A stretch of DNA of 41,126 nt from Treponema sp. (GTDB lineage Bacteria > Spirochaetota > Spirochaetia > Treponematales > Breznakiellaceae): the NCBI GenBank assembly GCA_031266175.1, contig JAISBN010000125.1, forward strand, positions 1 through 41,126. Reading direction: 5' to 3'. The notes under the pieces were generated by a model. That model searched no databases. It was not told where the DNA came from and was given only the letters and a program-made list of their open reading frames with translations. This document shows positions 6,508 to 28,081 of the stretch, piece after piece. The translations under genes and the position numbers were made by a program. The stretch's first letter is position 1. Every line of letters starts with the position of its first letter.

Positions 6508-6597
6508 CCGATTAGTGGGCGATACTGGATTCGAACCAGTGACTTCTACCGTGTGAAGGTAGCACTCTCGCCACTGAGTTAATCGCCCACTAATCGG
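6508..6597. repeat. Perfect 16-bp inverted repeat enclosing tRNA-Val
   Basis: CCGATTAGTGGGCGAT (6508-6523) and its exact complement ATCGCCCACTAATCGG (6582-6597) bracket the tRNA gene. Seven pairs are the acceptor stem. Nine pairs are flanking leader and trailer, which are not expected to match. In the precursor RNA the leader and trailer would form one continuous 16-bp helix (interrupted only in register by the discriminator position), followed by a U-run. Confidence 0.85.
6516..6588 (-). tRNA. tRNA-Val (anticodon CAC)
   Basis: The minus strand folds into a full cloverleaf of 73 bases: acceptor GGGCGAT/ATCGCCC, a D-arm with GAGAGTGC, anticodon stem CTACC/GGTAG with loop TTCACAC (anticodon CAC, reading GTG), and a T-arm with GGTTCGAATCC. 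The discriminator base is A, and CCA is not encoded because CTA follows. The acceptor stem is extended by nine further perfect pairs in the flanking DNA, and the 3' trailer runs into CCTTTTT at 6501-6509, a likely termination site. Confidence 0.95.
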
Positions 6598-6683
6598 TCA
6601 TGGTCAAAGAACGCGGATACGCGCACTCTCGCCACTGAGTTAATCGCCCGCTAATCGGTCATGGTCAAAGAACGCGGATGCGC
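6562..6683. repeat. 61-bp tandem duplication containing the 5' part of tRNA-Val
   Basis: Two direct copies, 6562-6622 and 6623-6683, differ at only about three positions. Each holds the first 27 bases of the tRNA (acceptor strand and D-arm) plus 34 bases of upstream flank including GACCGATTAG. The copy next to the tRNA is part of the intact gene. The outer copy leaves a tRNA 5'-half pseudogene upstream of the real gene. Confidence 0.85.
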
Positions 6684-6733
6684 GCATTCCCGTCCGCAAC
6701 TTTCACTTATTTTAACAGCGGCATGGCACTATG

Positions 6734-9175: not shown

Positions 9176-9185
9176 TGCCTCCCCT

Positions 9186-10337
9186 TTACAGAATGCAGAT
9201 GATCAGCGAATCGTTTTGCAGATGGTTTACCACCCTGCCGTCACCGAGCCGGGAAGGGAATATCTCGCCCCCGGAATACACAAAATGATACGGACTGTTC
9301 CCCAGGCATTCCTTTACTTTTTCGTGCTCCGCCATGGGCTGCATACCCAGGCACCAGTTACGGCCCGCGCAGGAGTACATCAGGATCCCCCGGCCTTTGG
9401 CCGCCGTCCGCGCTTCCGTTACTTTGGACTCGCTGGAGCTTACTACATCCTCGAAGCCCATCGTAGCCAGGGCGATGGCGGAATTAAGCGGGACGGCCCC
9501 GCAGAGGATCAAAGACCCGTCTCCCGTACCGCCGATGCAGGCCCGGATCAGCAGGGAACCGTCTTCCAGATAAATGATAAAAGGCATGGACTGCAGGCCC
9601 GCCACATCGCCGCCTTTGACAATGCCGATGGACTCAAGGTAGTTTACGGCGGGGATGTTGTTTATCGTTTGCAGAATATTGCGGTTAACCCCCGTTATTA
9701 CCGCCTTTTGCTTGAGGATATTTTCTTCATTGACGGAAACGCTTAAAAATTCAGGAACCTCCTCCCCCACAACGGCTGTCAGCGCCATGGAAGCCAGGTA
9801 GGATTCGCCGTTGTAGAGCGTATAGCTCCTGCTGTAATCCGGTTCGTTGGAAATAGCCAGGGTGCCGAAGGCGGGGATACCCCCGGAAAGGGCGTCAAGT
9901 TTTTCGATAAACTCATCTCCCCCCACGGTGAGCAAAAAAGGAATAAAGGGCATCAGCATGGCGGGTTTCCCGTCCAGGCCCGCCGTGATCCTGTGGTAGA
10001 ATTCCGAGAGGGGGACGTCAACCGAATCGGTAACCGGCGCGGAAACGCCGCTTACAAATTGTATGTCGTCGCTGGTCAGCACCGTTACCGAAAGCCCCGT
10101 CTCGCTCAGCATTGAAGACGCCGAGGCGCTTATGGTGGTAGAACCCACAGTATCAAAGGGCAGTTTTTCTGAAAGGGCCTTGACGACCCCGCTGTCCACA
10201 AAATCGCTGTAGCAGTGGATGATCCCAAGAGAATTGGCCAGACGCTTATGGTCCAAATCCAACTGTCCCAGCAGCTCCGATACCGCCGCTTCCACATCGT
10301 CGATCTCTTCGGTAAAGGCAGTAAGCATTTTAATCAT
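9186..10337 (-). CDS. FIST-domain sensor protein (FIST_N plus FIST_C)
   Basis: I place the start at 10337 (MIKMLTAFTEEIDD): CAGGAGG lies 8 bases upstream and the start matches that of the paralogue at 26921. The longer open frame up to 10487 overlaps the preceding gene and is not used. The 383 residues carry FIST_N features (LGIIHCYSDF, a VGSTTIS glycine turn, VLTSDD) and FIST_C features (SCAGRNWCLG, then PYHFVYSGGEIFP). FIST proteins bind small ligands, and in proteobacteria some (NosP) bind heme/NO and control an adjacent hybrid kinase. The gene overlaps the upstream HD-GYP gene by 8 bases (ATGATTAA), so translation is likely coupled. The ligand is unknown. Confidence 0.88.
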   Translation of the reverse strand: MIKMLTAFTEEIDDVEAAVSELLGQLDLDHKRLANSLGIIHCYSDFVDSGVVKALSEKLPFDTVGSTTISASASSMLSETGLSVTVLTSDDIQFVSGVSAPVTDSVDVPLSEFYHRITAGLDGKPAMLMPFIPFLLTVGGDEFIEKLDALSGGIPAFGTLAISNEPDYSRSYTLYNGESYLASMALTAVVGEEVPEFLSVSVNEENILKQKAVITGVNRNILQTINNIPAVNYLESIGIVKGGDVAGLQSMPFIIYLEDGSLLIRACIGGTGDGSLILCGAVPLNSAIALATMGFEDVVSSSESKVTEARTAAKGRGILMYSCAGRNWCLGMQPMAEHEKVKECLGNSPYHFVYSGGEIFPSRLGDGRVVNHLQNDSLIICIL

Positions 10338-11406
10338 TTCCCGTTCCTCCTGAATTTTGCCGCGCCTGGCCGGCGCTTTTTTTTGCCTCCGCGGCCAGTT
10401 CCCCATGGATGGACTCAAAGGCATCAACCACCCGCTCGTCAAAGCTTGTATTTTTTCCGTCCAGTATGATACGGCAGGCTTCGGCATGGTTCATTCCCTT
10501 GCGATACACCCTGTTGTCCACCAGGGCATCGTACACATCCGCCACCGCCATGATCCGGCCGCAGAGGGGGATTTGGTTTCCCGCAAGGCCCTGGGGATAG
10601 CCTTTCCCGTCAAAGCGTTCGTGGTGGGAGGCGGCGATCATCCTGGCGTAGTGCAGGTACTGCTGGGTGGGAGTGCGGACCAGCATATTTTCCAGTATTT
10701 CTTCGCCGATGACCGTATGCTGTTTCATGAGGTTAAATTCCTCGTCATCAAGCCGGTCCGGCTTAAGGAGGATGCGGTCGCTGATGGCGATCTTCCCGAT
10801 GTCGTGGAAGGGCGCCGCCCGGACCATCATCCGAAGGTCCGTGAGGGTAAGCTCTTCGGCAAAAAGCCCCGTTTCGATCAGCTTTTGCCCCAGCATACCC
10901 ACGTATTTGCTGGTCCGCGCCACGTGCTCGCCGGTGTTTTCGTCCCGGCACTCGATAAGCTCGGCAAAGGCAAGGGCAACGCTGTCCGACATTTTTGCCA
11001 CGGTATTTTCAAGCTGGGTCTGGTAGGATGAAAACCGGAGATGCAGTTCTATGCGGTGCAGGAGGATGCTCTTTTCCACCGGCTTGGTGATAAAGTCCCT
11101 GGCCCCCGACTGGAGTCCCCGGACCTGGGTTTCCGTATCGTGGTTGCCGGTAAGGAAAATCACCGGGATGCTTCCCAGATAGTGGTTCAGCCTGAGCCGC
11201 TTCAATGTCTCAAAACCGTCCATTCCGGGCATCTCGATGTCCAGCAGGATAAGATCGGGTTTTTCCCGCATGCAGATCTGCAGGGCCAGGGCCCCTGATT
11301 TGGCAAGGGAGACATCGTACCGTTCCCCAAGCTGGGCGCCTATCTGTTTAAGGCTTGACAGGTTATCGTCTACCACAAGGATCTTGTTTTTGGGAGCTTT
11401 ATCCAT
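10330..11406 (-). CDS. REC-HD-GYP response regulator, intact metal-binding motifs
   Basis: The 358-residue protein has an N-terminal receiver (ILVVDDN, LILLDIEMPGMDG, FLTGN, TKP) and a C-terminal HD-GYP domain with GEHVARTSKY, PFHDIGKI, HHERFDGKGYPQG and AVADVYDAL. The last motif keeps the Asp expected to bind the active-site metal. HD-GYP proteins hydrolyse cyclic di-GMP to pGpG or GMP. Its start overlaps the end of the preceding paralogous gene by 8 bases (ATGGATAA), and its end overlaps the FIST start, so the genes form a tightly coupled operon. The likely phosphodonor is the hybrid kinase at 6734-9175 through its HPt domain (inference). Confidence 0.93.
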   Translation of the reverse strand: MDKAPKNKILVVDDNLSSLKQIGAQLGERYDVSLAKSGALALQICMREKPDLILLDIEMPGMDGFETLKRLRLNHYLGSIPVIFLTGNHDTETQVRGLQSGARDFITKPVEKSILLHRIELHLRFSSYQTQLENTVAKMSDSVALAFAELIECRDENTGEHVARTSKYVGMLGQKLIETGLFAEELTLTDLRMMVRAAPFHDIGKIAISDRILLKPDRLDDEEFNLMKQHTVIGEEILENMLVRTPTQQYLHYARMIAASHHERFDGKGYPQGLAGNQIPLCGRIMAVADVYDALVDNRVYRKGMNHAEACRIILDGKNTSFDERVVDAFESIHGELAAEAKKSAGQARQNSGGTGND

Positions 11407-12463
11407 GGTACAGATCCTTTCCCTGGATTTTCACCAGCGGTTTCACGGAGACCTTGAGACGGGCAAATTCATTTTTCATTCCTTCAAATACCTCCACTAT
11501 CCGGGGATCAAACCAGGAACCCCTGCCGTCGATAATAACCCGGCAGGCTTCCTCGTGGCTGAGGGCCCCGCGGTAGACCCGCTCGGTGACGCAGCCGTCG
11601 TATACGTTTGCCACCGCCATGATCCGGCCGCAGAGGGGGATAGCGTTCCCGGCGAGACCGTGGGGATACCCTTTGCCGTCGTAGCGTTCATGATGGCTTT
11701 CGGCGATCAGCCTGGCGAATTTAAGGTAGTGCTGTTCGGGGGTACGCGCGTAAACGGCGGCAAGAAAGTGGGCGCCGATCAGGGTATGCCGCTTGACTTC
11801 CTCATATTCGTCTTTCGTAAGGGCATCTTCCTTGAGAAGCAGTATATCGCTGACGCCAATCTTGCCGATGTCATGAAAAGGCGCCGCCCGGACTATCATG
11901 TCCAGTTCCGCCCGGCTCAGTTCATCCCCGAAGGTTCCGGCATCAAGCAGCTTCCGGCCAAGAATTTCCACATACTTGCCTGTTCTGAGTACATGGGTCC
12001 CCGCGTTGTCGTCCTTGCATTCTATGAGTTCCGCGAAGGAAGTAACAATGCTTTCTTCCAGTTCCTTTACGGTCTGCTCCAGGGAATTCTGATACGCCGC
12101 GAATTGAAGATGGAGTTCCAGCCGGTGAAAGAGGATGTCCTTATTCGCCGGCTTTGTAATAAAATCCATGGCATCCGACTCAAGGGCCCTGATTTCGGTA
12201 GGCGCGTCGTGGTTGCCGGTAAGGAAGATAACCGGTATGGGGCTGAGGTCCGGGTCTTCCTTAAGCCTGGCGATAGTCTCGAAGCCGTCCATTTCCGGCA
12301 TCTCCACGTCCAGGAGGATAAGATCGGGCTTTTCCTGTTTGCATATCTTAAGGGCCAGGGCCCCCGATTTTGCCAGGGAAACCTCATAGTGCGGCTCAAG
12401 CTGGGCGCCTATCTGTTTGAGGGTTGCAAGATTGTCGTCTACCACCAGTATTTGCTTTGCCAT
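11399..12463 (-). CDS. REC-HD-GYP response regulator with Asp-to-Asn change in the HD-GYP site
   Basis: The start is taken at 12463 (MAKQILVVDDN), where the receiver begins as in its neighbour; no good ribosome-binding site is visible. The 354 residues show a receiver (LILLDVEMPEMDG) and an HD-GYP domain with THVLRTGKY, PFHDIGKIG and HHERYDGKGYPHG. The motif that reads AVADVYDA in the next gene is AVANVYDG here, so the Asp usually used to bind metal is Asn286. c-di-GMP hydrolysis may be altered or lost, and the protein may act as a binding or regulatory partner. Similar order and motifs show that the two regulators arose by tandem duplication. It is the first gene of the operon. Confidence 0.9.
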   Translation of the reverse strand: MAKQILVVDDNLATLKQIGAQLEPHYEVSLAKSGALALKICKQEKPDLILLDVEMPEMDGFETIARLKEDPDLSPIPVIFLTGNHDAPTEIRALESDAMDFITKPANKDILFHRLELHLQFAAYQNSLEQTVKELEESIVTSFAELIECKDDNAGTHVLRTGKYVEILGRKLLDAGTFGDELSRAELDMIVRAAPFHDIGKIGVSDILLLKEDALTKDEYEEVKRHTLIGAHFLAAVYARTPEQHYLKFARLIAESHHERYDGKGYPHGLAGNAIPLCGRIMAVANVYDGCVTERVYRGALSHEEACRVIIDGRGSWFDPRIVEVFEGMKNEFARLKVSVKPLVKIQGKDLYHG

Positions 12464-12788
12464 GGTACAGCCCGAAGAGGGATCCCCGGATAGCCGTAGT
12501 ATATCCCCTCCGGGGCAGGATAGCAAGCAAAAGCGTTCCGGGGCCGTATGCCGCCGGCGGGACCATTTACGGCAATGTTGACGCTCCCGGCGGGAACCGT
12601 GCGGACGGGGAAGCCGGGGCACAGCTTGACAGCGGGTCCCGCCTGCGATACCGTATTATACCAATAGTTTCTTTGATTGCCCTTACTTCCTGTAGTGGTG
12701 CTGTCCTCGTGGCGTCCGGGACCGTGGATGTCTTTTGCCCGGCGGCAATCTTGATCAAACACACGGAGGGCGGCGACGCGGTTGCGCG
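12464..12788. promoter_or_regulatory. Divergent control region between the HD-GYP and sugar-sensing operons
   Basis: This 325-base gap holds no credible gene. On the minus strand a perfect TATAAT (12655-12660) could serve the HD-GYP operon, but no good -35 box is seen, and it implies a leader of about 185 bases. On the plus strand a perfect TTGACA (12626-12631) is 22 bases from TATTAT (12654-12659), too far for a standard promoter. A short dyad, GCGGGTCCCGC (12632-12642), lies between them and could be an operator. The region probably contains both promoters, but their exact places are uncertain. Confidence 0.35.
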
Positions 12789-13760
12789 ATGGGCCAATTA
12801 TCCAACAGACTTAAATTCTTTCCGCTGGCTCTCTGCGCCCTTGTTTTTGTCCTGCTGGTGGGGTGGACCCTGGGGGAACTGCGGACCATAGGGACAACCA
12901 TCAATATTCCCCGGAATACGACGCCCATTGAATACCAGTTTGCCCTGCTTATTCCCGCCATGGATTACGATCTGTTCTATACCCGTTTTTGCGGCGGGAT
13001 GAAGGAAATTGCGGAGCGGGAACACGCGGTGCTGGAAGTTTATGAATATCCCGAAGGAGAGCGGGACGAAATACGCCGCCTTCTGCGGCTTATCCTGAAT
13101 ACCAATCCGGACGGGGTGGTGTTTTCTATTCCCTATGATCCGGCCTATGAAGAATACTTTAAGGCCTTTGCGGACCATAACATCCCCCTGGTTACCCTTG
13201 AATACGATGCCGTTTGCCGGGACGCCCATGTGGGATCCAATCCCTTTGAACTTGGCAGGCTGGCGGGGGAAGCGGTCATAAGCCTTAACTCCGGCGGTTC
13301 CGCGGCGGTGCTGCTTTCCGGGGGGGATACAAGTTTTATCCAGGGATTCAGACAGGTGTTGATGGATAACGGAACCATAGGCATAGGCATGATCCGATCC
13401 TACGAAGATACCACCGCGTCGGGGGAGGAATTTATCCGGGAAATTCTGGTAAGCCGGGACAATATTACCGTGGCGGTCTTTACCGGTTCCCGGGAGGCCG
13501 AAGGCGCCGCCCAGGCGCTGATCGAATATGGCAGGGTTGGAACCCCCCTTATCATTGCTTCCGAGGACAATCCGGAAATACGGCGGCTTATGGAAATGGG
13601 GGTTATTTCCGCGACGGTGGTGCGAAATCCGGAAAACGCCGGACGCGCCGCCATTCAGGCCCTCCGCGCCCTTTCCCGGAACGAAAGGACCAACGCCTAT
13701 GTGGACCCGGGTTCATCCATAGTCTGGGCGGAAACGCTGAAACAGGGAAGGCGTCCGTGA
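12789..13760 (+). CDS. Membrane-anchored periplasmic sugar-binding sensor (XylFII-like)
   Basis: The start is set at 12789 (MGQLSNRLKFFPLALC); a purine-rich GGAGGG lies rather far upstream, so the start is not certain. Residues about 8-27 form one membrane anchor without a clear cleavage site or lipobox. The rest is a type I periplasmic-binding fold (Peripla_BP_4 type): ALLIPAMDYDLFYTRFCGGM, PDGVVFSIPYDP, NIPLVTLEYD, VGSNPFELGRLAGE, SEDNPEIRRLMEMG. Its end overlaps the kinase gene (GTGA). Such an anchored binding protein coupled to a LytS-type kinase is known as XylFII-LytS in Clostridium, where it reports extracellular xylose. Here the sugar is not known. Confidence 0.75.
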   Translation: MGQLSNRLKFFPLALCALVFVLLVGWTLGELRTIGTTINIPRNTTPIEYQFALLIPAMDYDLFYTRFCGGMKEIAEREHAVLEVYEYPEGERDEIRRLLRLILNTNPDGVVFSIPYDPAYEEYFKAFADHNIPLVTLEYDAVCRDAHVGSNPFELGRLAGEAVISLNSGGSAAVLLSGGDTSFIQGFRQVLMDNGTIGIGMIRSYEDTTASGEEFIREILVSRDNITVAVFTGSREAEGAAQALIEYGRVGTPLIIASEDNPEIRRLMEMGVISATVVRNPENAGRAAIQALRALSRNERTNAYVDPGSSIVWAETLKQGRRP

Positions 13761-15268
13761 AACCCCATACTTTGCTTCGGGTAAAGCTGCCGGCCACCAT
13801 ACACAGCAAACTCATCTCCATCGCTATTGTTCCGGTACTGCTTCTTGCCCTGGCGGCGGTGCTTACCGCCTATACGGTTTCGGCCTCTATTTCTGGAACG
13901 GCGGCGTTATTCGAAAAAAACTACTACCTGGAAGGGCTTTTAACCGAGGCAGCCGCCGCGGAAAATAATCTGTCCAGTTATGTTTCGTCCCGGAATACCG
14001 AAAGCCTGCGGCAGTACTATTCCCATTCCCGGCTGCTTGGCGACAAGGGACAGGCTCTTGATTCCCCGGTGTATACCTACGAAGGGGTTGTGATCGAACG
14101 GGACATAGCGGAGCTGATTACCGGGTTTCTGGCAGCCGGCGAGGCGGCGGTTCAGGCTAAGCGGGGCTGGAATACTCCCGAATATACCCTGCAGCACCGC
14201 CGGGTCCAGGAACTGGGCAATCAAATCCGGGAACGGGCCGCGGCCCTGCGGCTTTTTATGCTGGATAACCAGCTGGTGTCGTTTACCGCTTTCTCCGGCG
14301 GCATGCGCAGGGCCCTGCTGCTCAACCTGGCTACCATAGGGGCGGCTTTGATGCTGGCTATTTTTGTTATTCTTTATTTTACCCAGAAAATCTCCGCGCC
14401 CATCTCCCTTTTGGGTTCCGAAGCGCAGAAAATTGCCAGAGGGATCTTTGACGAATCGGTACTGGCAGCGGAAGGGGACGACGAAATCAGCGCCACCGCC
14501 AAAGCCTTTAACCTGATGAAAAAATCCATTCAGGATTCAATTAACGAGATTCACGCCAGGGCGGAGGTGGAGCGGGCTTTGCTCCAGGAGAAAATGAAGA
14601 ACCTGGAAGTGACCGGGCTTCTGCGCAAGACGGAACTGGACGCCCTCCAGGCAAAAATCAATCCCCACTTTCTTTTTAATACCCTCAATACGGGACTTCA
14701 GCTGGCAGTGGTGGAAGGAGCGGAAAAAACCCGGATCTTTCTGGAACAGCTTGCTTCCCTGATGCGCTATTCCTTCCGGGAATCGGACAATTTTATTACC
14801 ACCCTCCAGGAAGAGGTGGCGTACCTTAAATCATACCTTTACCTGATGACCACCCGCTTTCCCGATGTCTTTAATATTGATATATCCGTAAGCGGCGACG
14901 CCGGAAACGCCATGGTACCTAAGATGATCATTCAGCCCCTGGCGGAAAACGCCATCCGCCACGGCCTGCAGCAGAAAACCGAAAACGCCCGGCTGGTCCT
15001 GCTGGGGGAACTTAAAAACGGCAATCTCATTATTATGGTGGAAGACAACGGCATAGGAATCCACCAGGACCGGATACGGGAAATCCTTGCCGCCGCGGAA
15101 CATAATAAAGATCTTCCGGACAACTCCGCGGGCCACGGATACGGCCTCTCCAATGTTATCCGCAGGCTCAGGCATTTTTCCGGCAGGACCGATGTATTTT
15201 CCATAGAACCGGTTGTTCCTTCCGGAACGCGGATAACCATTAATATTCCCTTTAGGGAAGCGTCATGA
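13757..15268 (+). CDS. LytS/YesM-type sensor histidine kinase
   Basis: The start is GTG at 13757, overlapping the previous stop (GTGA), with AGGGAAGG upstream. The 503 residues have a first membrane helix (about 20-42), a periplasmic loop of about 140 residues, a second helix (about 185-210), a HAMP segment (about 212-265), the His_kinase domain with KINPHFLFNTLN (His near 304), and a HATPase with NAIRHGLQ and GHGYGLSNV. This is the YesM/LytS architecture. The periplasmic part has no sugar-binding fold of its own, which fits input from the anchored binding protein next door. It should phosphorylate the AraC-type regulator encoded directly downstream. Confidence 0.92.
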   Translation: MKPHTLLRVKLPATIHSKLISIAIVPVLLLALAAVLTAYTVSASISGTAALFEKNYYLEGLLTEAAAAENNLSSYVSSRNTESLRQYYSHSRLLGDKGQALDSPVYTYEGVVIERDIAELITGFLAAGEAAVQAKRGWNTPEYTLQHRRVQELGNQIRERAAALRLFMLDNQLVSFTAFSGGMRRALLLNLATIGAALMLAIFVILYFTQKISAPISLLGSEAQKIARGIFDESVLAAEGDDEISATAKAFNLMKKSIQDSINEIHARAEVERALLQEKMKNLEVTGLLRKTELDALQAKINPHFLFNTLNTGLQLAVVEGAEKTRIFLEQLASLMRYSFRESDNFITTLQEEVAYLKSYLYLMTTRFPDVFNIDISVSGDAGNAMVPKMIIQPLAENAIRHGLQQKTENARLVLLGELKNGNLIIMVEDNGIGIHQDRIREILAAAEHNKDLPDNSAGHGYGLSNVIRRLRHFSGRTDVFSIEPVVPSGTRITINIPFREAS

Positions 15269-16779
15269 AGACGGAAAACAGAACTTCGATATACCTGGTG
15301 GACGACGAACAGCCGGTGCTGGACGGCCTTTCGGTAACTTTGGGCAAAATATTTCCGGAGATGAGGATCTGCGGTACCGCCCGGTCCGGCATGGACGCGC
15401 TAAAGGGCATTGCCAGGGAAAAGCCGGACATTATCATCATGGATGTCCGAATGCCCGGCATGAGCGGCATCGACACCCTGCGGGAGGTGAACAAGATCCT
15501 TCCCGGTACTGTTTCCATCCTGCTCACCGCCTATGAACGGTTCGACATAGCCAAGGACGCCTATGCCCTGGGAGTATACCGTTATCTGGTCAAGCCCGTA
15601 TCCCAGGAAGTTCTTGCCGAAACCCTCACCGGAGTCCTCCGGCGGCTGGAGAACATAAAAAATTCCACCCTGCGGGAAGCTTCCGAACGGGAACGTTTTG
15701 AAAGTACCCGGCCCCTGCTGGAAGCGGGCTTTATCTGGCAGGCGGTACTGGGGGATCCCCGGTCTTTGCTGCTCCACTCCTTTGGGGAACTTTTGGGGCT
15801 GGTGGAAGACGGAAACATCCGGGGGCATTTTGCAGTTATCTGCCGGGAAAAATACTGGCTTACCCAGGAAGAGATCGCCGCCATACAGCGGGAACTAACC
15901 AACCACCTGGACTGTATTCCGGGCCCGCTTTTGGGGGGAATACTGCCGGTTTTTGTTCCCGGTGAAAAGCTTAACCGGACCAGAGATACGCTGCGGAGCG
16001 TTCTGGAAGTCCTGGACATGCGGGAACTTCGCTGTTCCCTGGGTTATGTAGCTTCCAACAACGACCTCCGGCTTTCCTGGTCCCAGGCCCTGACCGCCAT
16101 ACAAAGGGAAACGGAAAACGAAGCTGTTCGTCCGGTTCCGGGAATCAATGATACGGGAACGGATAAGGCGAACCTGATGCTGCAGCAGTTCAGGGACGGG
16201 GATATGCTTAAACTCCGGACCGCGTTCTTTGAATGGGCCCTGGCCGGAGCGGATAAAACCGAAAGGGCGGTCCTGGCCGGGGTTCTCTGCGCCCTGGCCG
16301 GGGCGGATGCGGAAAAAATCCTGGCCGCGGGGAAACTGCAGACGGCGGTAACCGGTACCGGAACCAGGGAAACCGCGGAATATGCCGCGGATCTTTTAAT
16401 TTCCGCCCTTTCGATCCTGCCGGCATCCGGTGAAGGCGGCGATGGAGCATATCTTGGCAGCGACCGGCGGATCCGCAGGGCTTTGCGGTTTATTGCCGCC
16501 CACTACAGCGAGCCCGTATCTCTGGAAGATACCGCCGCTTATGCGGAACTAAGCCCCGCCCACCTTTCCAGGCTTTTTTCGGTGGAAACGGGTAGTACCT
16601 TTTCCAGCCAGCTGGCCCGTTACCGTATTACCCGGGCCTGCCAGGAATTAAGTGAAGGAAAACTCAGCATCAAGGAAATTGCCGGCGCCTGCGGCTATTC
16701 GGATGCCAATTATTTTAGCCGGGCCTTTAAAAAAATTCTGGGCCTAAGCCCCACCGAATGGATGGAGGGAAAACAATGA
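15265..16779 (+). CDS. YesN-type response regulator with AraC DNA-binding domain
   Basis: The start ATG overlaps the kinase stop (ATGA). The 504-residue protein has a receiver (IYLVDDE, IIIMDVRMPG with Asp60, LTAYERF, VKP), a central region of about 250 residues as in YesN proteins, and a C-terminal AraC/HTH_18 domain (RFIAAHYSEPVSLEDTAAYA, then IKEIAGACGYSDANYFSRAF and GLSPTEW). It is expected to activate sugar-uptake genes when phosphorylated; the obvious targets are the binding protein and mglBAC just downstream, and perhaps its own operon. The end overlaps the XylF-like gene. Confidence 0.93.
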   Translation: MKTENRTSIYLVDDEQPVLDGLSVTLGKIFPEMRICGTARSGMDALKGIAREKPDIIIMDVRMPGMSGIDTLREVNKILPGTVSILLTAYERFDIAKDAYALGVYRYLVKPVSQEVLAETLTGVLRRLENIKNSTLREASERERFESTRPLLEAGFIWQAVLGDPRSLLLHSFGELLGLVEDGNIRGHFAVICREKYWLTQEEIAAIQRELTNHLDCIPGPLLGGILPVFVPGEKLNRTRDTLRSVLEVLDMRELRCSLGYVASNNDLRLSWSQALTAIQRETENEAVRPVPGINDTGTDKANLMLQQFRDGDMLKLRTAFFEWALAGADKTERAVLAGVLCALAGADAEKILAAGKLQTAVTGTGTRETAEYAADLLISALSILPASGEGGDGAYLGSDRRIRRALRFIAAHYSEPVSLEDTAAYAELSPAHLSRLFSVETGSTFSSQLARYRITRACQELSEGKLSIKEIAGACGYSDANYFSRAFKKILGLSPTEWMEGKQ

Positions 16780-17819
16780 AACAGGAGCATATCTCCGCGA
16801 AACCGCTGTTTATCCTGCTGGGCCTGCTGCTTGCGGGCGGCTGTTCGGACAAGCGGGAACTTCCTTCTTCGGGCGATAAAATTACCATCGGCTTTGTGAT
16901 GGATTCCCTGGTGGAGGAACGGTGGGCCCGGGACAGAAATATTTTTATCTCCACCGCCCACCGGCGGAACGCGGAGGTCATTGTCCAGATTGGCGAAGAA
17001 AGCGCGGCCAACCAGGAAGCCCAGATAAACTATCTGATGGAGCAGGGTATTGACGTGCTGGTTCTTATCGCCAGTACTCCCCACCATCTTACCAAATCGG
17101 TCCTTGATGTCCGGCGGAAGGGGATTCCGGTACTGCTTTACGAACGGATCGTTTATAATGCCGGGGCCAACCTGCTGGTAGCCTTTGACGGGGAAGCGGT
17201 AGGAACCCTTCAGGCCCAGGAGATGCTTAAGCGGGTCAAGCGGGGAAAAATCCTTATCTACAACGGCCTGTCCGGGGATTTTTATGCCGAGGAAGTGCAC
17301 CGGGGTATCATCAATACTTTGGCGGAAGCCATAAACCGGGGAAACATTACCATCGCGGAGGATCACTGGCCTGAAAGTTCCAGGGCGGAAGAGGCGTTCA
17401 CCTATATCGGCGGCTATCTGGAACAAAGCGGGCCGGTGGACGGCATTATCGCCCTGAACGATCTTCAGGCGGAAGCAGTTATCCGGGCCCTGGCATTAAA
17501 GCGGCTGGCGGGAAAAGTCGTTGTCATCGGGGCCGACGCGGATCTTGCCGCCTGCCAGCGCATCGCGGTCGGAACCCAGGCCATGACGGTATATAAACCC
17601 ATCAACTACATCGCCTCCACCGCGGCGGATTTGGCTGTCTACCTGGCCAGGGATAACCGTTTTACCATCCATAACGGTATCAGCGACGGCGCCTTCCGTA
17701 TTCCCTATTACCGTCTTGCCCCGGTGGGGGTTACCGCCGACAATCTGGACGAAACGGTTATCAGGGACGGTTTTCACCTGCGGGACGAGGTGTATCGTAA
17801 TATGCTTTTACCGGAATGA
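16776..17819 (+). CDS. XylF-like sugar-binding lipoprotein
   Basis: The start ATG overlaps the regulator's stop (ATGA) and has GGAGGG upstream. A short signal ends in the lipobox LLLAGGC. The mature part closely follows the layout of the E. coli xylose-binding protein as I remember it: IGFVMDSLVEERWARDRNIF, EAQINYLMEQGIDVLVLI, KGIPVLLYERI, GADADLAACQRIAVGTQAMT and VYKPIN. It could be a second binding protein delivering to MglAC, or an accessory sensor; no dedicated xylGH genes are nearby. Because it is cotranscribed with the two-component system rather than with mglBAC, a sensory role is plausible. The substrate is predicted only from family resemblance. Confidence 0.82.
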   Translation: MKQEHISAKPLFILLGLLLAGGCSDKRELPSSGDKITIGFVMDSLVEERWARDRNIFISTAHRRNAEVIVQIGEESAANQEAQINYLMEQGIDVLVLIASTPHHLTKSVLDVRRKGIPVLLYERIVYNAGANLLVAFDGEAVGTLQAQEMLKRVKRGKILIYNGLSGDFYAEEVHRGIINTLAEAINRGNITIAEDHWPESSRAEEAFTYIGGYLEQSGPVDGIIALNDLQAEAVIRALALKRLAGKVVVIGADADLAACQRIAVGTQAMTVYKPINYIASTAADLAVYLARDNRFTIHNGISDGAFRIPYYRLAPVGVTADNLDETVIRDGFHLRDEVYRNMLLPE

Positions 17820-17929
17820 TACGGCGGGCTTCACTTTTATGCGCTGTTTTACAAGATTAATGCTGGTAAAAAAACTGCGTATCTATGCCGCCAAAATCTT
17901 TCCTGTAAATAAAAAAAATTCCTCAAGGT

Positions 17930-17991
17930 AAAAATGGTACAACAAAAGTACCGGGGTCTGTTTGCTCCGGAAAAACCATTTTTTCAGGAGG
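17930..17991 (+). promoter_or_regulatory. Structured leader before mglB
   Basis: The 177-base gap before mglB contains an outer dyad, AAAAATGG (17930-17937) with CCATTTTT (17976-17983), enclosing a small GGTAC/GTACC hairpin. The right arm ends 2 bases before the AGGAGG ribosome-binding site (17986-17991). The outer stem could influence translation or stability of the mglB message. I see no convincing promoter in the gap, although one is likely given the distance. Confidence 0.35.
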
Positions 17992-17996
17992 AAAAA

Positions 17997-19010
17997 GTGA
18001 AGAAAACTATTATCGTTCTCCTTATTGCGGCGGTTGTGCTGTCCTTTGCGGCCTGCGGCGGCGGAAGCCGGCAGGGCAGCGGGCTGCCCGCCATCGGTGT
18101 AGCTATTTACAAATTTGACGACACCTTTATGTCCTATACCCGCAACGCCATCCAGTCCAACGCGGCCGGCAAGGCCGAGCTGGAAGTGGTAGACTCCCAG
18201 AATGCCCAGGCTACCCAGAACGACCAGGTTGATGCGTTCCTTTCCAAAAAGATCAGCGCCATCGCCATTAACCCTGTTGACCGGACCGCGGCGGCCACCA
18301 TTATTGATAAGGCCCAGGCCAAGAAAGTTCCCGTGGTATTCTTTAACCGGGAACCTCTTCCCGAAGATATGGCCAAGTGGGACCAGGTGTACTATGTGGG
18401 GGCCAAAGCCGAACAGTCCGGCTCCATGCAGGGCGAAATCGCCTACGACTATTGGACCGCTAATCCCGATGCGGACAAAAACAAGGACGGCGTTATCCAG
18501 TATATCATGCTCAAGGGCGAACCCGGACACCAGGACGCGGAACTGCGGACCCAGTATTCCATCCAGTACCTTAAAGACAAAGGCATCCAGGTTGAACTTC
18601 TGGCCGAGGATACCGCGATGTGGGACCGGCCGAAGGCGGTAGAAAAAATGGATGCCTTCCTGGCCGCCTACGGCGACAGGATCGAAATGGTATTCTGTAA
18701 CAACGACGACATGGCTCTTGGCGTAATTGAATCCCTCAAAAACGCCGGTTATTTCCAGGGTGGAAAATATCTTCCCGTCCTTGGCGTCGATGCTACCGCA
18801 CCCGCGCTTGAAGCCCTTTCCCAGGGAACCCTGCTGGGTACTGTCCTTAATGACGCCGACAATCAGGGCAAAGCGACTTTCGACATTGCCTACGCCCTTG
18901 CCAGCGCTTCCGCTCCCGAGACTGCCGGCTGGACTATCACTGACAGCAAGTATATCTGGGTGCCCTATCAGAAGGTTACCAGGGACAACTATACCCAGTT
19001 CCAGAAGTAG
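17997..19010 (+). CDS. mglB: Galactose/glucose-binding lipoprotein MglB
   Basis: The start is GTG at 17997, 5 bases after AGGAGG; the frame extends further up without such a site. Signal peptide and lipobox LSFAAC make it a lipoprotein. The sequence keeps the sugar-contact motifs of E. coli MglB: YKFDDTFMS, FFNREP, GEPGHQDAELR, MWDRPKA, VFCNNDDMALG and VLGVDATAPA. This covers the Asp, Asn, His, Asp, Arg, Trp, Asn and Asp residues that hold glucose or galactose. It delivers hexose to MglA-MglC. Spirochaetal MglB lipoproteins are often very abundant, and the hairpin after this gene may favour its expression over the downstream genes. Confidence 0.92.
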   Translation: MKKTIIVLLIAAVVLSFAACGGGSRQGSGLPAIGVAIYKFDDTFMSYTRNAIQSNAAGKAELEVVDSQNAQATQNDQVDAFLSKKISAIAINPVDRTAAATIIDKAQAKKVPVVFFNREPLPEDMAKWDQVYYVGAKAEQSGSMQGEIAYDYWTANPDADKNKDGVIQYIMLKGEPGHQDAELRTQYSIQYLKDKGIQVELLAEDTAMWDRPKAVEKMDAFLAAYGDRIEMVFCNNDDMALGVIESLKNAGYFQGGKYLPVLGVDATAPALEALSQGTLLGTVLNDADNQGKATFDIAYALASASAPETAGWTITDSKYIWVPYQKVTRDNYTQFQK

Positions 19011-19055
19011 TCCTTTTCGGATCTCCAAATTTTTGACCCGGTAAACCCGGGTAAA

Positions 19056-19084
19056 GGGATGTGCGGAAGTTTTCCGTGCATCCC
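19056..19084 (+). promoter_or_regulatory. Intercistronic hairpin between mglB and mglA
   Basis: GGGATGTGCGGAA pairs with TTCCGTGCATCCC over 13 bp, counting two G-U pairs, with a three-base loop. No T-run follows, so it is not a standard terminator. Its place after a binding-protein gene fits an mRNA-stabilising or partial-attenuation element that keeps MglB in excess over the ATPase and permease. Confidence 0.65.
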
Positions 19085-19116
19085 TCTACTTTATCTATGT
19101 GCAGGAGGAACGGCCG

Positions 19117-20652
19117 ATGGCAAACAACGATTCACCTTCAGGTGTGTCCAATTATATCCTCCAGGTAAAAAATCTTTCCAAATCTTTTCCTGGCGTTAGA
19201 GCGCTCAATGATGTTTCGCTCAATGTTAAGCCCGGCAGCGTACATGCCCTGATAGGAGAAAACGGCGCCGGTAAATCAACCCTTATGAAGTGTCTCTTTG
19301 GCATTTATGAAGCCGATGCCGGGGAAATTATTCTGGACGGGAAAAAGGTACATTTTAATGATTCCAAGCAGGCTCTGGATGCGGGAATCTCCATGATCCA
19401 CCAGGAATTACTGCCGGTACCGTTCCGGAGCGTCATGGAAAACCTGTGGCTGGGGCGTTTTCCCAAACAGTTCTTTGGTCCCATAAGGCTTATTGATCAT
19501 AAAAAAATGTACAACGATACGGTGGACCTTTTTAAGGATCTGGATATGGATATTCCCCCAAAAGTCTGGGTTAGGGAACTGTCGGTATCCAAGGTGCAGT
19601 CTCTGGAAATCGCCAAGGCCGTATCCCACAATTCCCGGGTGATTATCATGGATGAGCCCACGTCATCCCTTACGGAACACGAGGTATCCCAGCTTTTCAC
19701 CATTATCAGGCGGCTTCGGGACCAGGGAGTGGCGATTATCTACATATCCCACAAAATTGAAGAGATTCTTACCATTGCCGACGAAGTATCGATAATGCGG
19801 GACGGACAACATATCGGTACCTTCGCGTCAAAGGAACTTACTACGGACAGAATCATTAAATACATGGTGGGACGGGATTTAACTAACCGGTTCCCGCCAA
19901 AAATCAATGCCCCCGGCGAGGTGATTCTGGAAGTAAAGAACCTTACCTCCGGCATGGAGCACTCTTTTAAGGAGGTAAGTTTTACCGTCCGAAGGGGCGA
20001 AATCTTCGGTATCGGGGGACTGGTAGGCGCCCAGCGGACAGAACTGGTGGAATCCCTGTTCGGACTGCGGTCTATTGCCGGAGGTACGATCCTGATCAAT
20101 GGAAAAGAACAGGAAATCAAGTCTCCCGTTCAGGCAAAACAGAAAAAATTGGCCCTGGTTACCGAAGAAAGACGGGTAACGGGGATTATTCCCATGCGGT
20201 CTGTAAAGGATAATATGATCCTGGCCAACCTGAAAAAATATGTCGGCCGCCTGGGCCTGATTAACGAACAAAAAGGCGAACAGGACGCCCGGGAAAGCAT
20301 CAAGACCCTGAATGTTAAAACCCCTTCAAGCAAAACCCTGATTCGGGATCTTTCCGGAGGTAACCAGCAGAAGGTGCTTTTTGCCCGGTGGTTCCTGACA
20401 GAGCCGGACATTCTTATTCTGGATGAACCAACCCGGGGCATTGATGTGGGGGCCAAGTACGAAATTTACAATATCATTATTGAACTGGCAAAGCAGGGCA
20501 AGTGCGTAATCATGATTACCTCGGAAATGCCCGAACTGCTGGGAATTTCGGACAGGATTATGGTCATGTGTGAAGGCAGGGTTACCGGTATTCTGGAAGC
20601 AAAAGACGCTACCCAGGAAGAAATAATGCGCCTGGCGGCAAAATTCATGTAG
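19117..20652 (+). CDS. mglA: Sugar ABC transporter ATP-binding protein MglA
   Basis: The start is placed at 19117 (MANNDSP), 8 bases after AGGAGG. The 511-residue protein has two fused ABC domains, as in all MglA/RbsA/XylG proteins. The first has Walker A GENGAGKS (48-55), signature region LSVSKVQSLEIAKA and Walker B VIIMDEPTSSL. The second has a degenerate P-loop (GLVGAQRTEL, as is normal in this family), signature LSGGNQQKVLFARW and Walker B ILILDEPTRGID. It energises uptake of the sugar delivered by MglB through MglC, and acts at the inner face of the cytoplasmic membrane. Confidence 0.95.
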   Translation: MANNDSPSGVSNYILQVKNLSKSFPGVRALNDVSLNVKPGSVHALIGENGAGKSTLMKCLFGIYEADAGEIILDGKKVHFNDSKQALDAGISMIHQELLPVPFRSVMENLWLGRFPKQFFGPIRLIDHKKMYNDTVDLFKDLDMDIPPKVWVRELSVSKVQSLEIAKAVSHNSRVIIMDEPTSSLTEHEVSQLFTIIRRLRDQGVAIIYISHKIEEILTIADEVSIMRDGQHIGTFASKELTTDRIIKYMVGRDLTNRFPPKINAPGEVILEVKNLTSGMEHSFKEVSFTVRRGEIFGIGGLVGAQRTELVESLFGLRSIAGGTILINGKEQEIKSPVQAKQKKLALVTEERRVTGIIPMRSVKDNMILANLKKYVGRLGLINEQKGEQDARESIKTLNVKTPSSKTLIRDLSGGNQQKVLFARWFLTEPDILILDEPTRGIDVGAKYEIYNIIIELAKQGKCVIMITSEMPELLGISDRIMVMCEGRVTGILEAKDATQEEIMRLAAKFM

Positions 20653-20660
20653 GAGGAACC

Positions 20661-21782
20661 ATGGAACAGCCTTTGAAGTTAAGCACTATCAGGATGAATA
20701 TCAGAATGAAGACCGTTAGGGATTTTGCGGTTCAGCATGCAATTTATTTTGTGTTTATCATTCTGATCATCTTTATCCACTGTTATTCGTATTTCGGCCG
20801 GGGTGGCGCAACTTTCCTGTCCGTAGGGAACCTGATCAATATTCTTAATATGTCCGCTACCAGGATTATTATTGCCATGGGCATGGGCGGAATATTGATT
20901 ACCGCGGGGGTGGATCTTTCCGCGGGGCGGCAGGTAGGGCTTGCGGCGGTGGTTTCCGCGTCCATGCTTCAGGCGTTAACCTATTCCCGGCGTATGTATC
21001 CTGATTTGCCGGTACTGCCCCTGGTGGTGCCGATCATCCTTGCCATGCTGGCCTGCGCCCTTTTCGGCTTCCTTAACGGCTGGATCACCGCCAGGTTAAA
21101 GATTCCCGCTTTTATCGCCACATTGGGATCCATGGTAGCGGTCTATGGAGCATGCTCGCTGTACTTTGACCGGCCTCCGTATGGGGCGCAGCCCATCGGC
21201 GGCCTGGATCCCCGGTTTAGCACTTTGGGTTCCAATTCCTTTCGTATCCTGGAAGGGCGTGGTCTTGTTATCGGCCCGAACCCCGCAGGTTTTGCGGGCG
21301 AGGTCCACAAGTTCCCTATTAACTATATCGTTATCATTGCCGTCATAGTAACGATACTGATCTACATCCTTTACAACAAAACCACCTACGGCAAAAACAT
21401 CTATGCCATTGGGGGCAATCCCGATGCCGCCAGGGTTTCCGGGGTTAATGTAGAACGGACCCTGATCGTCGTATACACCCTGGCGGCGGTACTCTACGGC
21501 TTGGGGGGAACCCTGGAAGCGGCCCGCACCGGGGGCGCTACCAACAACTACGGGAACGGCTACGAACTGGACGCCATTGCCGCCTGCGTTGTGGGCGGGG
21601 TGTCCAATATGGGTGGTATAGGGACTGTACCGGGTATTGTTATCGGGGTACTTCTGTTTAGTGTTATCAACTACGGTCTTACCTTTATCAATATGTCGCC
21701 TTACTGGCAGCAGATTGTTAAGGGAGCGATTATCATCGTGGCGGTAGCGCTGGACATCAGAAAATACCTCAAAAAGCGGTAG
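20661..21782 (+). CDS. mglC: Sugar ABC transporter permease MglC
   Basis: The ATG follows AGGAGG by 4 bases and mglA by 8. The 373-residue hydrophobic protein has about eight to ten membrane segments and the BPD_transp_2 features of ribose/galactose permeases: GMGGILITAGVDLSAGRQVG, FGFLNGWITARLKIPAFIAT, YAIGGNPDAARVSGVNV and AIAACVVGGVSNMGGIGTVP. It forms the membrane channel with MglA. An extra loop of about 35 residues lies around the YFDRPPYGAQPIGGLDPR segment, as in treponemal MglC. A strong terminator follows. Confidence 0.95.
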   Translation: MEQPLKLSTIRMNIRMKTVRDFAVQHAIYFVFIILIIFIHCYSYFGRGGATFLSVGNLINILNMSATRIIIAMGMGGILITAGVDLSAGRQVGLAAVVSASMLQALTYSRRMYPDLPVLPLVVPIILAMLACALFGFLNGWITARLKIPAFIATLGSMVAVYGACSLYFDRPPYGAQPIGGLDPRFSTLGSNSFRILEGRGLVIGPNPAGFAGEVHKFPINYIVIIAVIVTILIYILYNKTTYGKNIYAIGGNPDAARVSGVNVERTLIVVYTLAAVLYGLGGTLEAARTGGATNNYGNGYELDAIAACVVGGVSNMGGIGTVPGIVIGVLLFSVINYGLTFINMSPYWQQIVKGAIIIVAVALDIRKYLKKR

Positions 21783-21911: not shown

Positions 21912-24900
21912 ATGTCAGATAAAAAGGTCATGATCGACGGCAATACCGCCGCGGCCTATGTGGCCCACGCGTTAAGCGAAGTAATCGCCATCTATCCGAT
22001 TACCCCCTCCAGCCCGATGGGGGAAGTTTCCGATGAGTTTTCCGCCCAGGGCAGGAAAAATCTCTGGGGAACCATCCCGGAGGTAGTAGAAATGCAGTCC
22101 GAGGCGGGGGCCGCCGGCGCCGTTCACGGGGCGTTGACCACGGGGGCCCTCTCCACGACCTTTACCGCTTCCCAGGGACTTCTTTTAATGATCCCCAATA
22201 TGTACAAAATCGCCGGGGAGCTTACCCCCACGGTGTTCCATATCGCCGCCCGGGCGCTGGCCGCCAGCTCCCTGTCCATTTTCGGCGACCACCAGGACGT
22301 CATGGCCTGCCGTCAGACCGGCTGGGCCATGCTTGCCGGTAACAGCGTCCAGGAAGTGATGGACCTGGCGGTGATTGCCCACGCGTCCACCCTCCGGTCC
22401 CGCATCCCCTTCCTCCATTTCTTTGACGGTTTCCGCACCAGCCACGAGCTTCAGAAGATCGAGGAAGTGTCCTACGAAGTGATGAAGCAGATGATCGACG
22501 ACGGCCTGGTCCGGGAACACCGGGAGCGGGGACTGACCCCGGAAAATCCCCGGATCCGGGGTACCGCCCAGAATCCCGATACCTATTTCCAGGGCCGGGA
22601 AGGGGTTAACAAGTACTACGACGCCGTGTCCGGCATCGTTCAGGCGGAGATGGATAAATACGCCGCCCTTACCGGCCGGGCCTACCATCTCTTTGATTAC
22701 TTTGGCGCTCCGGACGCGGACAAGGTCATCATCATCATGGGGTCGGGTGCGGAAACCTGCGAAGAAACGGTGGAGTATTTAACCGGTAAGGGTGAAAAAG
22801 CCGGGGTCCTGAAGGTGCGGCTCTTCCGTCCCTTCGACGCCGCCGCCTTTGTCAAAGCCCTTCCTTCCACGGTCAAGAGCATCGCCGTCCTGGACCGGAC
22901 CAAGGATCCCGGCGCCCTGGGCGAGCCCCTCTACGAAGACGTCCGTACCGCCATCGGCGAAATTATGGCCGGTGGAGCCGCCCCCTTTAAGGACTACCCC
23001 CTGGTACTGGGGGGCCGCTACGGCCTGGGTTCCAAGGAATTCACCCCCGCCATGGTCAAGGCGGTGTTTGACAACCTGGGGGGTAAAAAGATCGCTAACT
23101 TTGTGGTGGGCATTAAGGACGATGTGCTGGGCAAAAGCCTCGACTACGATGAACACTTTGTCCTGGCCGAGGAAGGGATCAACGAGGCGATGTTCTACGG
23201 CCTCGGCTCCGACGGTACCGTGGGGGCCAACAAAAACTCGATCAAGATCATCGGGGACGCCAAGCCGGAACTGAACGCCCAGGCGTATTTCGCCTACGAC
23301 TCAAAAAAATCCGGGGGCTTTACCGTGTCCCACCTCCGGTTCGGCAAAGGTGCTATCCGCAGGCCCTACCTTATCACCAAGGCGGACTTCCTGGCCTGCC
23401 ACAAGTTTTCCTATATGGAAACCTTTGACATGCTGGCAAACATTAAAGAGGGGGGCACCTTCCTTCTGAACAGTCCCTTTAAGGCCGCGGAGGTCTGGAA
23501 AGAAATCCCCCTGGAAGCCCAGCAGCGGATCGCCGATAAAAAGGTTAAGTTCTATGTGATCGACGCCGCGGAAATCGCCCGGAGCACCGGTATGGGCAGC
23601 CGGATCAATACGGTGATGCAGGCCGCGTATTTCAAGATTTCCGGGGTGCTTCCCCAGGACGAAGCGGTCAAATATATGAAGAAATTTATCGAAAAGTCCT
23701 ACGGGAAAAAGGGCGCGGACATCGTGGAAAAGAACTATAAAACCGTGGACGCTGCCCTGAGCGCGGTGGAAGAGGTCGCCTATTCCGCTCCCGGGGGCAG
23801 CCTCCGCATGAAAAAGCCCTTTGCCACCGCCAAGGACAGCTGGATCCGGGAAGTACTCGGGGCGGTGTCCGTTCAGGAAGGGGACAAGCTTCCGGTGTCG
23901 AAGATTCCCGCGGACGGAACCTTCCCCACCGCTACCACCCAGTACGAAAAACGGGCCGTGGCGGAACGGGTTCCCGCCTGGGACCCGGCGGTCTGTATCC
24001 AGTGCGGCCGCTGTTCCGCGGTGTGTTCCCATGCCTGCATCAGGATGAAGTACCTTTCAGCCGGCGAGGCCGAAAAAGCTCCCCGGGGATTTAAGACCGC
24101 CGAGCTTAAACCAAAGCCGGTGGACAACAAGAAAGTAACCCTTATCATCGCCGCGGAAGACTGCATGGACTGCGGCCTCTGTATCGCCAACTGTCCGGTG
24201 TCTAGGGATCCCGCTAAACCCTGCGCCCTTTCCTGGAAATCCTATGCCGACGATCCCGGCTACCATGCCGAGCAGGCGGAAGCCTGGGATTATTTCCAGC
24301 AGCTGCCGGAAGTTCCCGCGTCGGAACTTAACCTGGGCACCTTTAAGGGACTGGCCTTTAAGCGGCCCCTCTTTGAATTCTCCGGCGCCTGCGGGGGCTG
24401 CGGCGAGACTCCCTATGTAAAACTGCTGTCCCAGCTTTTCGGTGATCGGGCGGTTATCGCTAACGCCACGGGCTGTTCCTCCATTTACGGCGGGAACCTT
24501 CCTACCACCCCCTATGCCCGGCGGGCCGACGGCCGGGGGCCGGCCTGGTCCAACTCCCTCTTCGAGGACGCCGCCGAATTCGGCCTGGGCATGAGGCTTA
24601 CCAGCGACAAGCTTGCCGTTCACGCGAAAGAAGTGGCGGCCCAGGCCAAAGGCGAGGGGATTGCTCCGGCGCTTATTGACAAACTGCTGGCCAATTCCCA
24701 GGGGGACGACGCTGCCATCGAGGAACAGCGGAAAACCGTGGACGAACTTAAGGCGGCCCTGAAAAACGACGCCAAGCCCCTGGCCAGGATGCTTCTTTCC
24801 CTGGCGGACCATTTTATCAAGCGCTCCGTATGGATCCTGGGGGGCGACGGCTGGGGCTACGATATCGGCTACGGCGGCCTGGACCACGTGATCGCCTCCG

Positions 24901-26920: not shown

Positions 26921-28081
26921 ATGATAAAAATGCTTTTCGCCCATACAGCGGAAATTGACAATGTGGACGAGGCCCTTTCCCAGATCCATAACCAGCTGGA
27001 CGCGGAAGGGCGCCTGCTCCGCCATTCGGTGGGTATCCTGTATTATTACAGCGATTTTGCCCTGACCGGGGTGGTGCAAAAGCTCTGTTCCCGGTTCGAT
27101 TTTCCCATCGTGGGAGGGACCACCTCCAATTCCGCGGTGCCGGACTCCGGGGAAAACATGAACCTGACCCTGACGATCCTTACCAGTGATGATTGTACTT
27201 TTTCCGCGGGGGTAAGCGATCCCCTGAACCAGGATCCCTTTGTACCGATGGAAAAGCTCTACCGGCAGCTTGCGGGAGACGCCGGCGAAAAGCCCTCCCT
27301 GTTTTTTATTATGACCCCCCATTTAATGGAAGTTACGGGGGACGATTATCTTGCGGCCCTGAACAGTTTAAGCGGCGGCGTTCCGGTTTTCGGCTCCGCG
27401 GCCTTTACCCACACCGTGGATTTTACCGATGTCAAAACCTGTTTTAACGGCGTTGAATATAAAGACAGGCTGGCGTTGATTGCTTTCCGGGGGAACCTTC
27501 ATCCCCGGTTTTTTTGTTCCGTCATTCCGGAAGAACGGATGATTCACCAGCGGGCGTTTATTACCGATTCCTACAAAAACAGGATACGAAAAATCAACGG
27601 GATTCCCGCGGTGCAGTACCTTGAATCCGTCGGCCTTTCGGAGGACGGGAAATTACCCGGTATAGCCACCTTTCCCCTGATTGTGTATACCGGCGACGGT
27701 TCCAGGCTTATCCGTACTATTTTCAAGAATGAGGGCGAAGAACTTTTGTGCAGCGGTTCCATGCCTGTCCATACGTCCCTGGGCATTTCGTTCTGCGACA
27801 GGGAATTTGTCATTGAATCCGCAAAAAAAACGGCCCAGGAGTACACCAGAGCGGCTGCCGCCGGGGAAGCGGGCGGCCTGGCCCTGATCATTTCCTGCGC
27901 CGCCCGCAGATGGACGCTGGGCTCCGATGCTTATGCGGAGATCCGGGCGATTGACTCGGGTTTTGGAAATTTACCCTACCATTTTGCCTATTCCCTCGGT
28001 GAATTTTGTCCCATGGTAAACTCGGGCGGAAAAACGGCAAACTGTTTTCTTAACTATTCCCTCAGCGTTTGCATTATATGA
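26921..28081 (+). CDS. Second FIST-domain sensor protein
   Basis: The 386-residue protein is a clear paralogue of the FIST protein at 9186-10337. Both start MIKML, and equivalent blocks are [36 protein letters not shown] and [11 protein letters not shown]. The canonical SCAGR motif reads SCAAR here. It begins 7 bases after the glycosyltransferase and its stop overlaps the kinase start (ATGA), so it is translationally coupled to a hybrid kinase, as a FIST-kinase pair. It should be cytoplasmic and ligand-sensing; the ligand is unknown. Several His residues are shared with the paralogue only in the PYHF motif. Confidence 0.88.

Follow-up and report, generated by a model that had tools for sequence, protein, structure and literature searches.

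A 41,126-nt stretch of DNA from Treponema sp. (contig JAISBN010000125.1; here called the window, to which all strand signs refer) carries an operon that encodes two REC-HD-GYP proteins, a FIST protein, and a soluble hybrid kinase. We consider it probable that these proteins form a cytoplasmic pathway encoded in a single operon, in which FIST and its partner kinase control cyclic di-GMP (c-di-GMP) through the two HD-GYP proteins. As a prediction from sequence comparison, a relay from FIST to c-di-GMP is well supported by genomics. An earlier, sequence-only reading had described two REC-HD-GYP genes, a FIST gene, and a gene for a membrane-free kinase, joined by 8-base overlaps and a 10-base gap, and both the coordinates and the Pfam matches confirmed this description. 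The range that it gave for the operon, 9186-12463, holds both HD-GYP genes and FIST, but the kinase gene (9175-6734) falls outside it. The operon is laid out as follows.

12463-11399, minus strand: REC-HD-GYP1 (N-type), the first gene of the operon (Pfam Response_reg and HD_5/HD)
11406-10330, minus strand: REC-HD-GYP2 (D-type) (Pfam Response_reg and HD_5/HD)
10337-9186, minus strand: FIST, a stand-alone FIST-FIST_C protein of 383 amino acids (Pfam FIST and FIST_C)
9175-6734, minus strand: soluble hybrid kinase of 813 amino acids (Pfam PAS_4, HisKA, HATPase_c, Response_reg, and a marginal Hpt)
11399-11406, minus strand: 8-base overlap ATGGATAA between the HD-GYP1 stop and the HD-GYP2 start
10330-10337, minus strand: 8-base overlap ATGATTAA between the HD-GYP2 stop and the FIST start
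9176-9185, minus strand: 10-base gap between FIST and the kinase gene, with a ribosome-binding-like GGGGAGG that precedes the kinase start

The likely start of FIST is at 10337; the longest listed open reading frame (ORF), which extends to 10487, begins further upstream.

Within the window's family, the full order HD-GYP1-HD-GYP2-FIST-kinase is present in at least 13 genomes, which belong to the window's genus and seven other genera; in these orthologues the genes overlap and FIST identity ranges from 63 to 88%. Because the complete order recurs in this many genomes, we concluded that it is not due to chance; the earlier reading had proposed a check of gene order in relatives, and the order proved to be conserved. 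Of 59 genomes searched, 24 had FIST homologues, and these 24 all belong to the window's family; none of 23 genomes from the other families of the order had one. In a larger sample of the family, homologues were present in 119 of 200 genomes and 43 of 57 genera, with up to seven per genome. A related FIST alignment, run against 84,980 species genomes, yielded 78 loci, spanning Spirochaetota, Synergistota, Bacillota, Actinomycetota, Desulfovibrio, Elusimicrobiota, and Fibrobacter. From the record titles and the series of metagenome-assembled genomes (MAGs) to which they belong, we take most isolates with FIST loci to come from termite or cockroach guts. A same-strand kinase gene directly follows 112 of 135 non-redundant FIST genes (6 of the 135 stop at a contig edge, which leaves about 129); the loci were gathered with gut-spirochaete queries, which is an ascertainment limit on these counts. 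The window's FIST groups (98% support in the Shimodaira-Hasegawa-like approximate likelihood ratio test [SH-aLRT]) with orthologues from its own family and with one Coriobacteriales and one Synergistaceae MAG, both of which likewise have an HD-GYP gene upstream. This pattern suggests transfer among gut bacteria, with the proviso that bins can contain foreign contigs. Variants of the module, with either a FIST gene, a kinase gene, a second FIST gene, and a gene for a stand-alone HPt protein or a tandem FIST pair before one kinase gene, were seen at loci L140, L142 (Bacillota), L150 (Spirochaetales), and L153 (Defluviitaleaceae).

FIST and the N-terminal part of the kinase are inherited together. 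Across 93 FIST-kinase units, the distance correlation between FIST and the kinase N terminus plus PAS (N-PAS) was 0.88, compared to 0.57 between FIST and the catalytic core, 0.46 between FIST and REC, and 0.80 between the core and REC. The partial correlation of FIST with N-PAS, given the core, was 0.82; that of FIST with the core, given N-PAS, was 0.13. From this co-inheritance, rather than from a contact map, we infer that the unit consists of two exchangeable modules, one comprising FIST and the coiled coil/PAS and the other comprising the core and REC, and that FIST docks on the first.

The kinase consists, in order, of an N-terminal coiled-coil-like stretch, PAS_4, HisKA, HATPase, REC, and HPt, and it has every phospho-site of a hybrid phosphorelay (HisKA H212, REC D519, and HPt H675). 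Its Pfam Hpt score of 24.0 is just under the cutoff of 24.6, and the HPt motif HGLKG is present, with its His as residue 675. Of 34 kinases whose HPt His is intact, 13 have an HD-GYP gene in their operon; none of the 69 other kinases does (Fisher P value of 8.7e-8, uncorrected for phylogeny).

HD-GYP1 and HD-GYP2 are not equivalent, nor are they copies of one function, a point that the earlier reading did not make. In HD-GYP2, the receiver is intact, and equivalents of PmGH H189, H221, D222, H250, H276, H277, and D305 are present together with the GYP motif; it has Asn at the position of E185, where PA4781 is also without Glu. HD-GYP1, also with an intact receiver, keeps the other compared ligands (H189, H221, D222, H250, H276, and H277 in PmGH numbering) and departs from the full HD-GYP ligand set at D305 alone, where it has Asn286 (codon 11608-11606); it is best called HD-GYP-like. 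The family yielded 35 unique tandem HD-GYP pairs, gathered for the most part by an N-type query, which is an ascertainment limit. In all 35, the first protein has Asn (N-type) and the second has Asp (D-type) at the position of PmGH D305. N-type proteins form one clade (99%), and the Asn is fixed among them down to 40% identity. All other ligands are retained in 34 of the 35, the remaining protein having also lost two His ligands; K225 and the Tyr of GYP are present in all 35, D308 is present in 30, and the receiver has its phosphoacceptor Asp in 33. Among 19 unpaired HD-GYP proteins, 17 have Asp at the D305 position, one has Cys, and one, a member of the N-type clade encoded at a contig end, has Ser. 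When 393 genomes of the phylum were sampled, matches this strong turned up only in the window's family. Since a D305A substitution reduces hydrolysis by PmGH (PMC12943098), and given the N/D asymmetry, we predict that HD-GYP2 is an active c-di-GMP hydrolase and that HD-GYP1 is a fixed variant.

Other HD-GYP genes were also noted. On contig C113 of the same genome (locus L238, ORF from 4637), a D-type HD-GYP regulator that branches beside the N-type clade adjoins an HPt-containing protein of 786 amino acids; this regulator may resemble the state that preceded the D305N change. Contig C130 (locus L240, ORF from 3892) encodes a probably degenerate HD-GYP protein, in which HE replaces HD and the D305 position is Cys. 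Several HD-GYP matches in other genomes of the family hold one internal stop (TGA, TAA, or TAG; e.g., G030:C1:2119815-2120822), perhaps only as alignments that run beyond the true stop.

In the pathway that we propose, FIST would bind its ligand, dock on the N-terminal coiled coil/PAS of the kinase, and alter kinase activity. Phosphate would move within the kinase from H212 to D519 and then to H675 of the HPt, from which it would be passed to the receivers of both HD-GYP proteins. Once activated, HD-GYP2, with its metal ligands kept, would hydrolyze c-di-GMP, and HD-GYP1, with its fixed D305N change, would act alongside it as a partner with low activity or a regulatory role. The earlier reading had also put forward a ligand-to-c-di-GMP pathway. 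Conserved order, the co-inheritance of FIST with the kinase N terminus, and the occurrence of HD-GYP genes only beside intact-HPt kinases favor that part of its proposal; the heme/nitric oxide (NO) part is unsupported.

Four points weigh against the proposed pathway. The association between HPt and HD-GYP is non-significant on the tree, where only about two informative independent pairs are found, and we use it only as a supporting trend. Most FIST-kinase units are without an HPt and without a linked output; HD-GYP is therefore not the sole target of FIST. Fifteen of the 35 HD-GYP pairs have no FIST gene after them (some lie at contig ends), and therefore other kinases can serve the pair. Finally, binding of FIST to the kinase, phosphotransfer, and HD-GYP activity are all predicted from genomics. 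One could suppose that the genes are only cotranscribed, with the kinase signaling to another response regulator and the HD-GYP proteins phosphorylated by another kinase, in keeping with the HD-GYP pairs that adjoin other HPt kinases in relatives. However, the order, with its overlapping genes, persists across the orthologues described above, and we regard this explanation as very unlikely. We are doubtful, though less so, of the idea that HD-GYP1 is active with an altered specificity (e.g., for pGpG or another dinucleotide), such that the pair divides the route from c-di-GMP to GMP. It would fit the retention of the other ligands, K225, the GYP Tyr, and mostly D308 in N-type proteins, as well as the fixation of Asn specifically rather than of a random residue. 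However, D305A lowers hydrolysis by PmGH, and the loss of two His ligands in one N-type protein and the Ser in one homologue fit better with a regulatory role.

We then considered what FIST might sense. Its AlphaFold model is confident, with a mean predicted local distance difference test (pLDDT) score of 95.3, and the closest solved fold is that of human FBXO22 (Foldseek E value of 2.9e-9; VIA Z score of 20.5, with a root mean square deviation of 4.0 over 266 aligned residues), followed by chorismatase and cyanuric acid hydrolase. No relative of FIST turned up in a PDB sequence search, whether a single sequence or a profile was used; the link to FBXO22 comes from Foldseek/VIA and from a motif alignment, for which the FBXO22 fragment was matched letter for letter to residues 324-400 of PDB entry 29hg. 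Along with the FBXO22-like fold, FIST has the Cys-x-x-Arg/Gly-Glu signature, in the form of C323 (codon 9371-9369), R326, and E358 (codon 9266-9264), which align with FBXO22 C326, R329, and E362. This site is nearly universal: C323, R326, and E358 are present in 130, 129, and 130, respectively, of the 130 FIST loci in the gut set, and the Cys, Arg, and Glu are present in 20, 19, and 19, respectively, of 20 FIST proteins in a set that spans bacteria and archaea and has proteobacterial, cyanobacterial, and haloarchaeal members.

Two features of NosP systems are present in the operon: the FIST protein stands alone with FIST_C, and its gene adjoins those of a soluble kinase and c-di-GMP output proteins. 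A NosP-like mode of action, in which an auxiliary sensor controls the kinase, is likely. That it is NosP proper, with FIST binding heme, heme binding NO, and the kinase answering NO, seems to us improbable. The domains and gene order are those of Burkholderia pseudomallei nosRPK, and heme and NO binding is known for FIST proteins from several proteobacteria. However, no His is conserved in the FIST family, in either the gut set or the 20-member broader set, and the majority residue His374 (FBXO22 H388) is replaced by Gln in the clade of the window's FIST and by Leu, Cys, or Tyr in that of the second FIST encoded in the window (see below). Moreover, ferrochelatase was absent from the window's genome and from all relatives searched but present in 8 of 14 controls. 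Heme could still be imported, or be ligated by a Cys. With these findings, the heme/NO analogy drawn in the earlier reading is left with no positive sequence evidence, and identity as a heme/NO NosP is unsupported.

A different ligand can be suggested, though only tentatively and as a rather unlikely candidate: an electrophilic or redox-active small molecule, such as an aldehyde, that FIST would capture reversibly and covalently through C323, with E358 and R326, in place of heme. This suggestion concerns the ligand only and is compatible with the relay from FIST to the kinase and HD-GYP proteins. C326 of FBXO22, the closest solved fold, forms hemithioacetals with aldehydes, and E362A abolishes activity (PMC13316043); the near-universal C323/R326/E358 site matches this reactive site. 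In Pseudomonas, nosP-nahK sits in the ped alcohol/aldehyde oxidation cluster (PMC12997753). On the other hand, the aldehydes tried on FBXO22 were synthetic, and the Cys-Arg-Glu site could be structural or hold a noncovalent ligand. Bacterial FIST proteins are not discussed in the FBXO22 aldehyde paper (PMC13316043).

The window encodes a second FIST-kinase pair, absent from the earlier reading.

26921-28081, plus strand: second FIST, 37% identical, with the same Cys/Arg/Glu signature and Leu at position 374; preceded by a glycosyltransferase gene
28069-30204, plus strand: its partner PAS-HK-REC kinase, with a C-terminal HPt-like region without the phosphoacceptor His

Genes for the glycosyltransferase (25636-26913) and a pyruvate:ferredoxin oxidoreductase (21912-25469) lie upstream, and a similar arrangement recurs at loci L046, L048, and L051. 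A third FIST-kinase pair is encoded on contig C7 of this genome, in which we counted five GGDEF domains and some eight HD-GYP genes. A c-di-GMP riboswitch or other known RNA was sought upstream of the HD-GYP1-kinase operon; Rfam gave none, tRNA-Val being its only match. A sigma-70-like site at 12526-12498 was rejected as a promoter, because such sites occur at chance level in the region (5 found versus 3.6 expected). The plus-strand region 12735-21782, divergent from the operon, looks from its translations alone like a typical sugar uptake island: it encodes sugar-binding proteins, a membrane kinase together with an AraC-type regulator, and an ABC transporter for sugar. tRNA-Val(CAC) occupies 6515-6588 within 6515-6720, where it is preceded by a repeat of the 5′ part of the tRNA plus a unit of about 35 bases (GCGTATCCGCGTTCTTTGACCATGACCGATTA), as from a local duplication.

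The nearest known system is NosP-NosK-NosR of B. pseudomallei, for which a pathway of this kind, with phosphotransfer to an HD-GYP protein, has been demonstrated biochemically (PMC12570481). As in the window, nosRPK encodes an HD-GYP response regulator, a FIST protein, and a soluble histidine kinase, in that order. An HD-GYP gene in the same transcript, which the earlier reading had presented as a new element, is thus already known (PMC12570481), and because of the shared order and phosphotransfer, we regard the FIST-kinase-HD-GYP pathway as a variant of a known architecture. In nosRPK, however, a single degenerate HD-GYP (HG-GTP) is combined with a plain kinase, whereas the kinase of the window is a hybrid that bears REC and HPt, the HD-GYP proteins number two, one with its ligands kept and one with D305N only, and evidence for heme is lacking. 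In Pseudomonas and Legionella, NosP-NahK likewise has a FIST gene beside that of a kinase feeding biofilm or c-di-GMP signaling, but the outputs are HptB or the GGDEF-EAL protein NarR, and heme/NO binding has been measured, whereas it has no sequence support here. HnoD of Shewanella is a degenerate HD-GYP protein. The HnoX-HnoK-HnoB-HnoD system also has an auxiliary soluble sensor, a kinase, a c-di-GMP phosphodiesterase, and a second protein, HnoD, that inhibits the phosphodiesterase (PMC8846402); its sensor is H-NOX and its phosphodiesterase is HnoB, whereas both outputs here are HD-GYP paralogues, 37 to 63% identical, in fixed order. FBXO22 shares with FIST the fold and the Cys-x-x-Arg ... 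Gly-Glu signature, including the reactive C326 with E362, but it is a subunit of a ubiquitin ligase (E3), and overall identity is only about 10%. Among HD-GYP domains, PA4781 (PDB 4R8Z) and PmGH (PDB 4MCW) are the nearest solved structures; HD-GYP2 keeps all ligands common to both, whereas HD-GYP1, like the first member of all the pairs, carries Asn at the D305 position. What is new here is the N/D HD-GYP pair, the co-inheritance of modules, and the Cys-Arg-Glu site that nearly all FIST proteins have in common with FBXO22; we found no description of these in the literature, subscription papers being outside the search.

Genomes with up to seven FIST genes, nearly always beside a kinase gene, offer a system in which to test what the natural ligand and binding site of FIST domains are, a question that concerns both the bacterial proteins and human FBXO22. 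The co-inheritance of FIST with the kinase N terminus suggests where auxiliary sensors dock. The asymmetric HD-GYP pair lends itself well to determining the effect of a single metal-ligand change in a c-di-GMP enzyme, and it raises the question of whether HD-GYP proteins work as pairs. As a speculation from sequence that we consider unlikely, the FIST proteins of bacteria and archaea may be thiol sensors that catch a reactive metabolite in the Cys-Arg-Glu pocket, the target of covalent FBXO22 drugs; in gut spirochaetes, they would drive an obligate two-protein HD-GYP unit in which the D305N partner modulates, or brings to completion, what the intact phosphodiesterase does.

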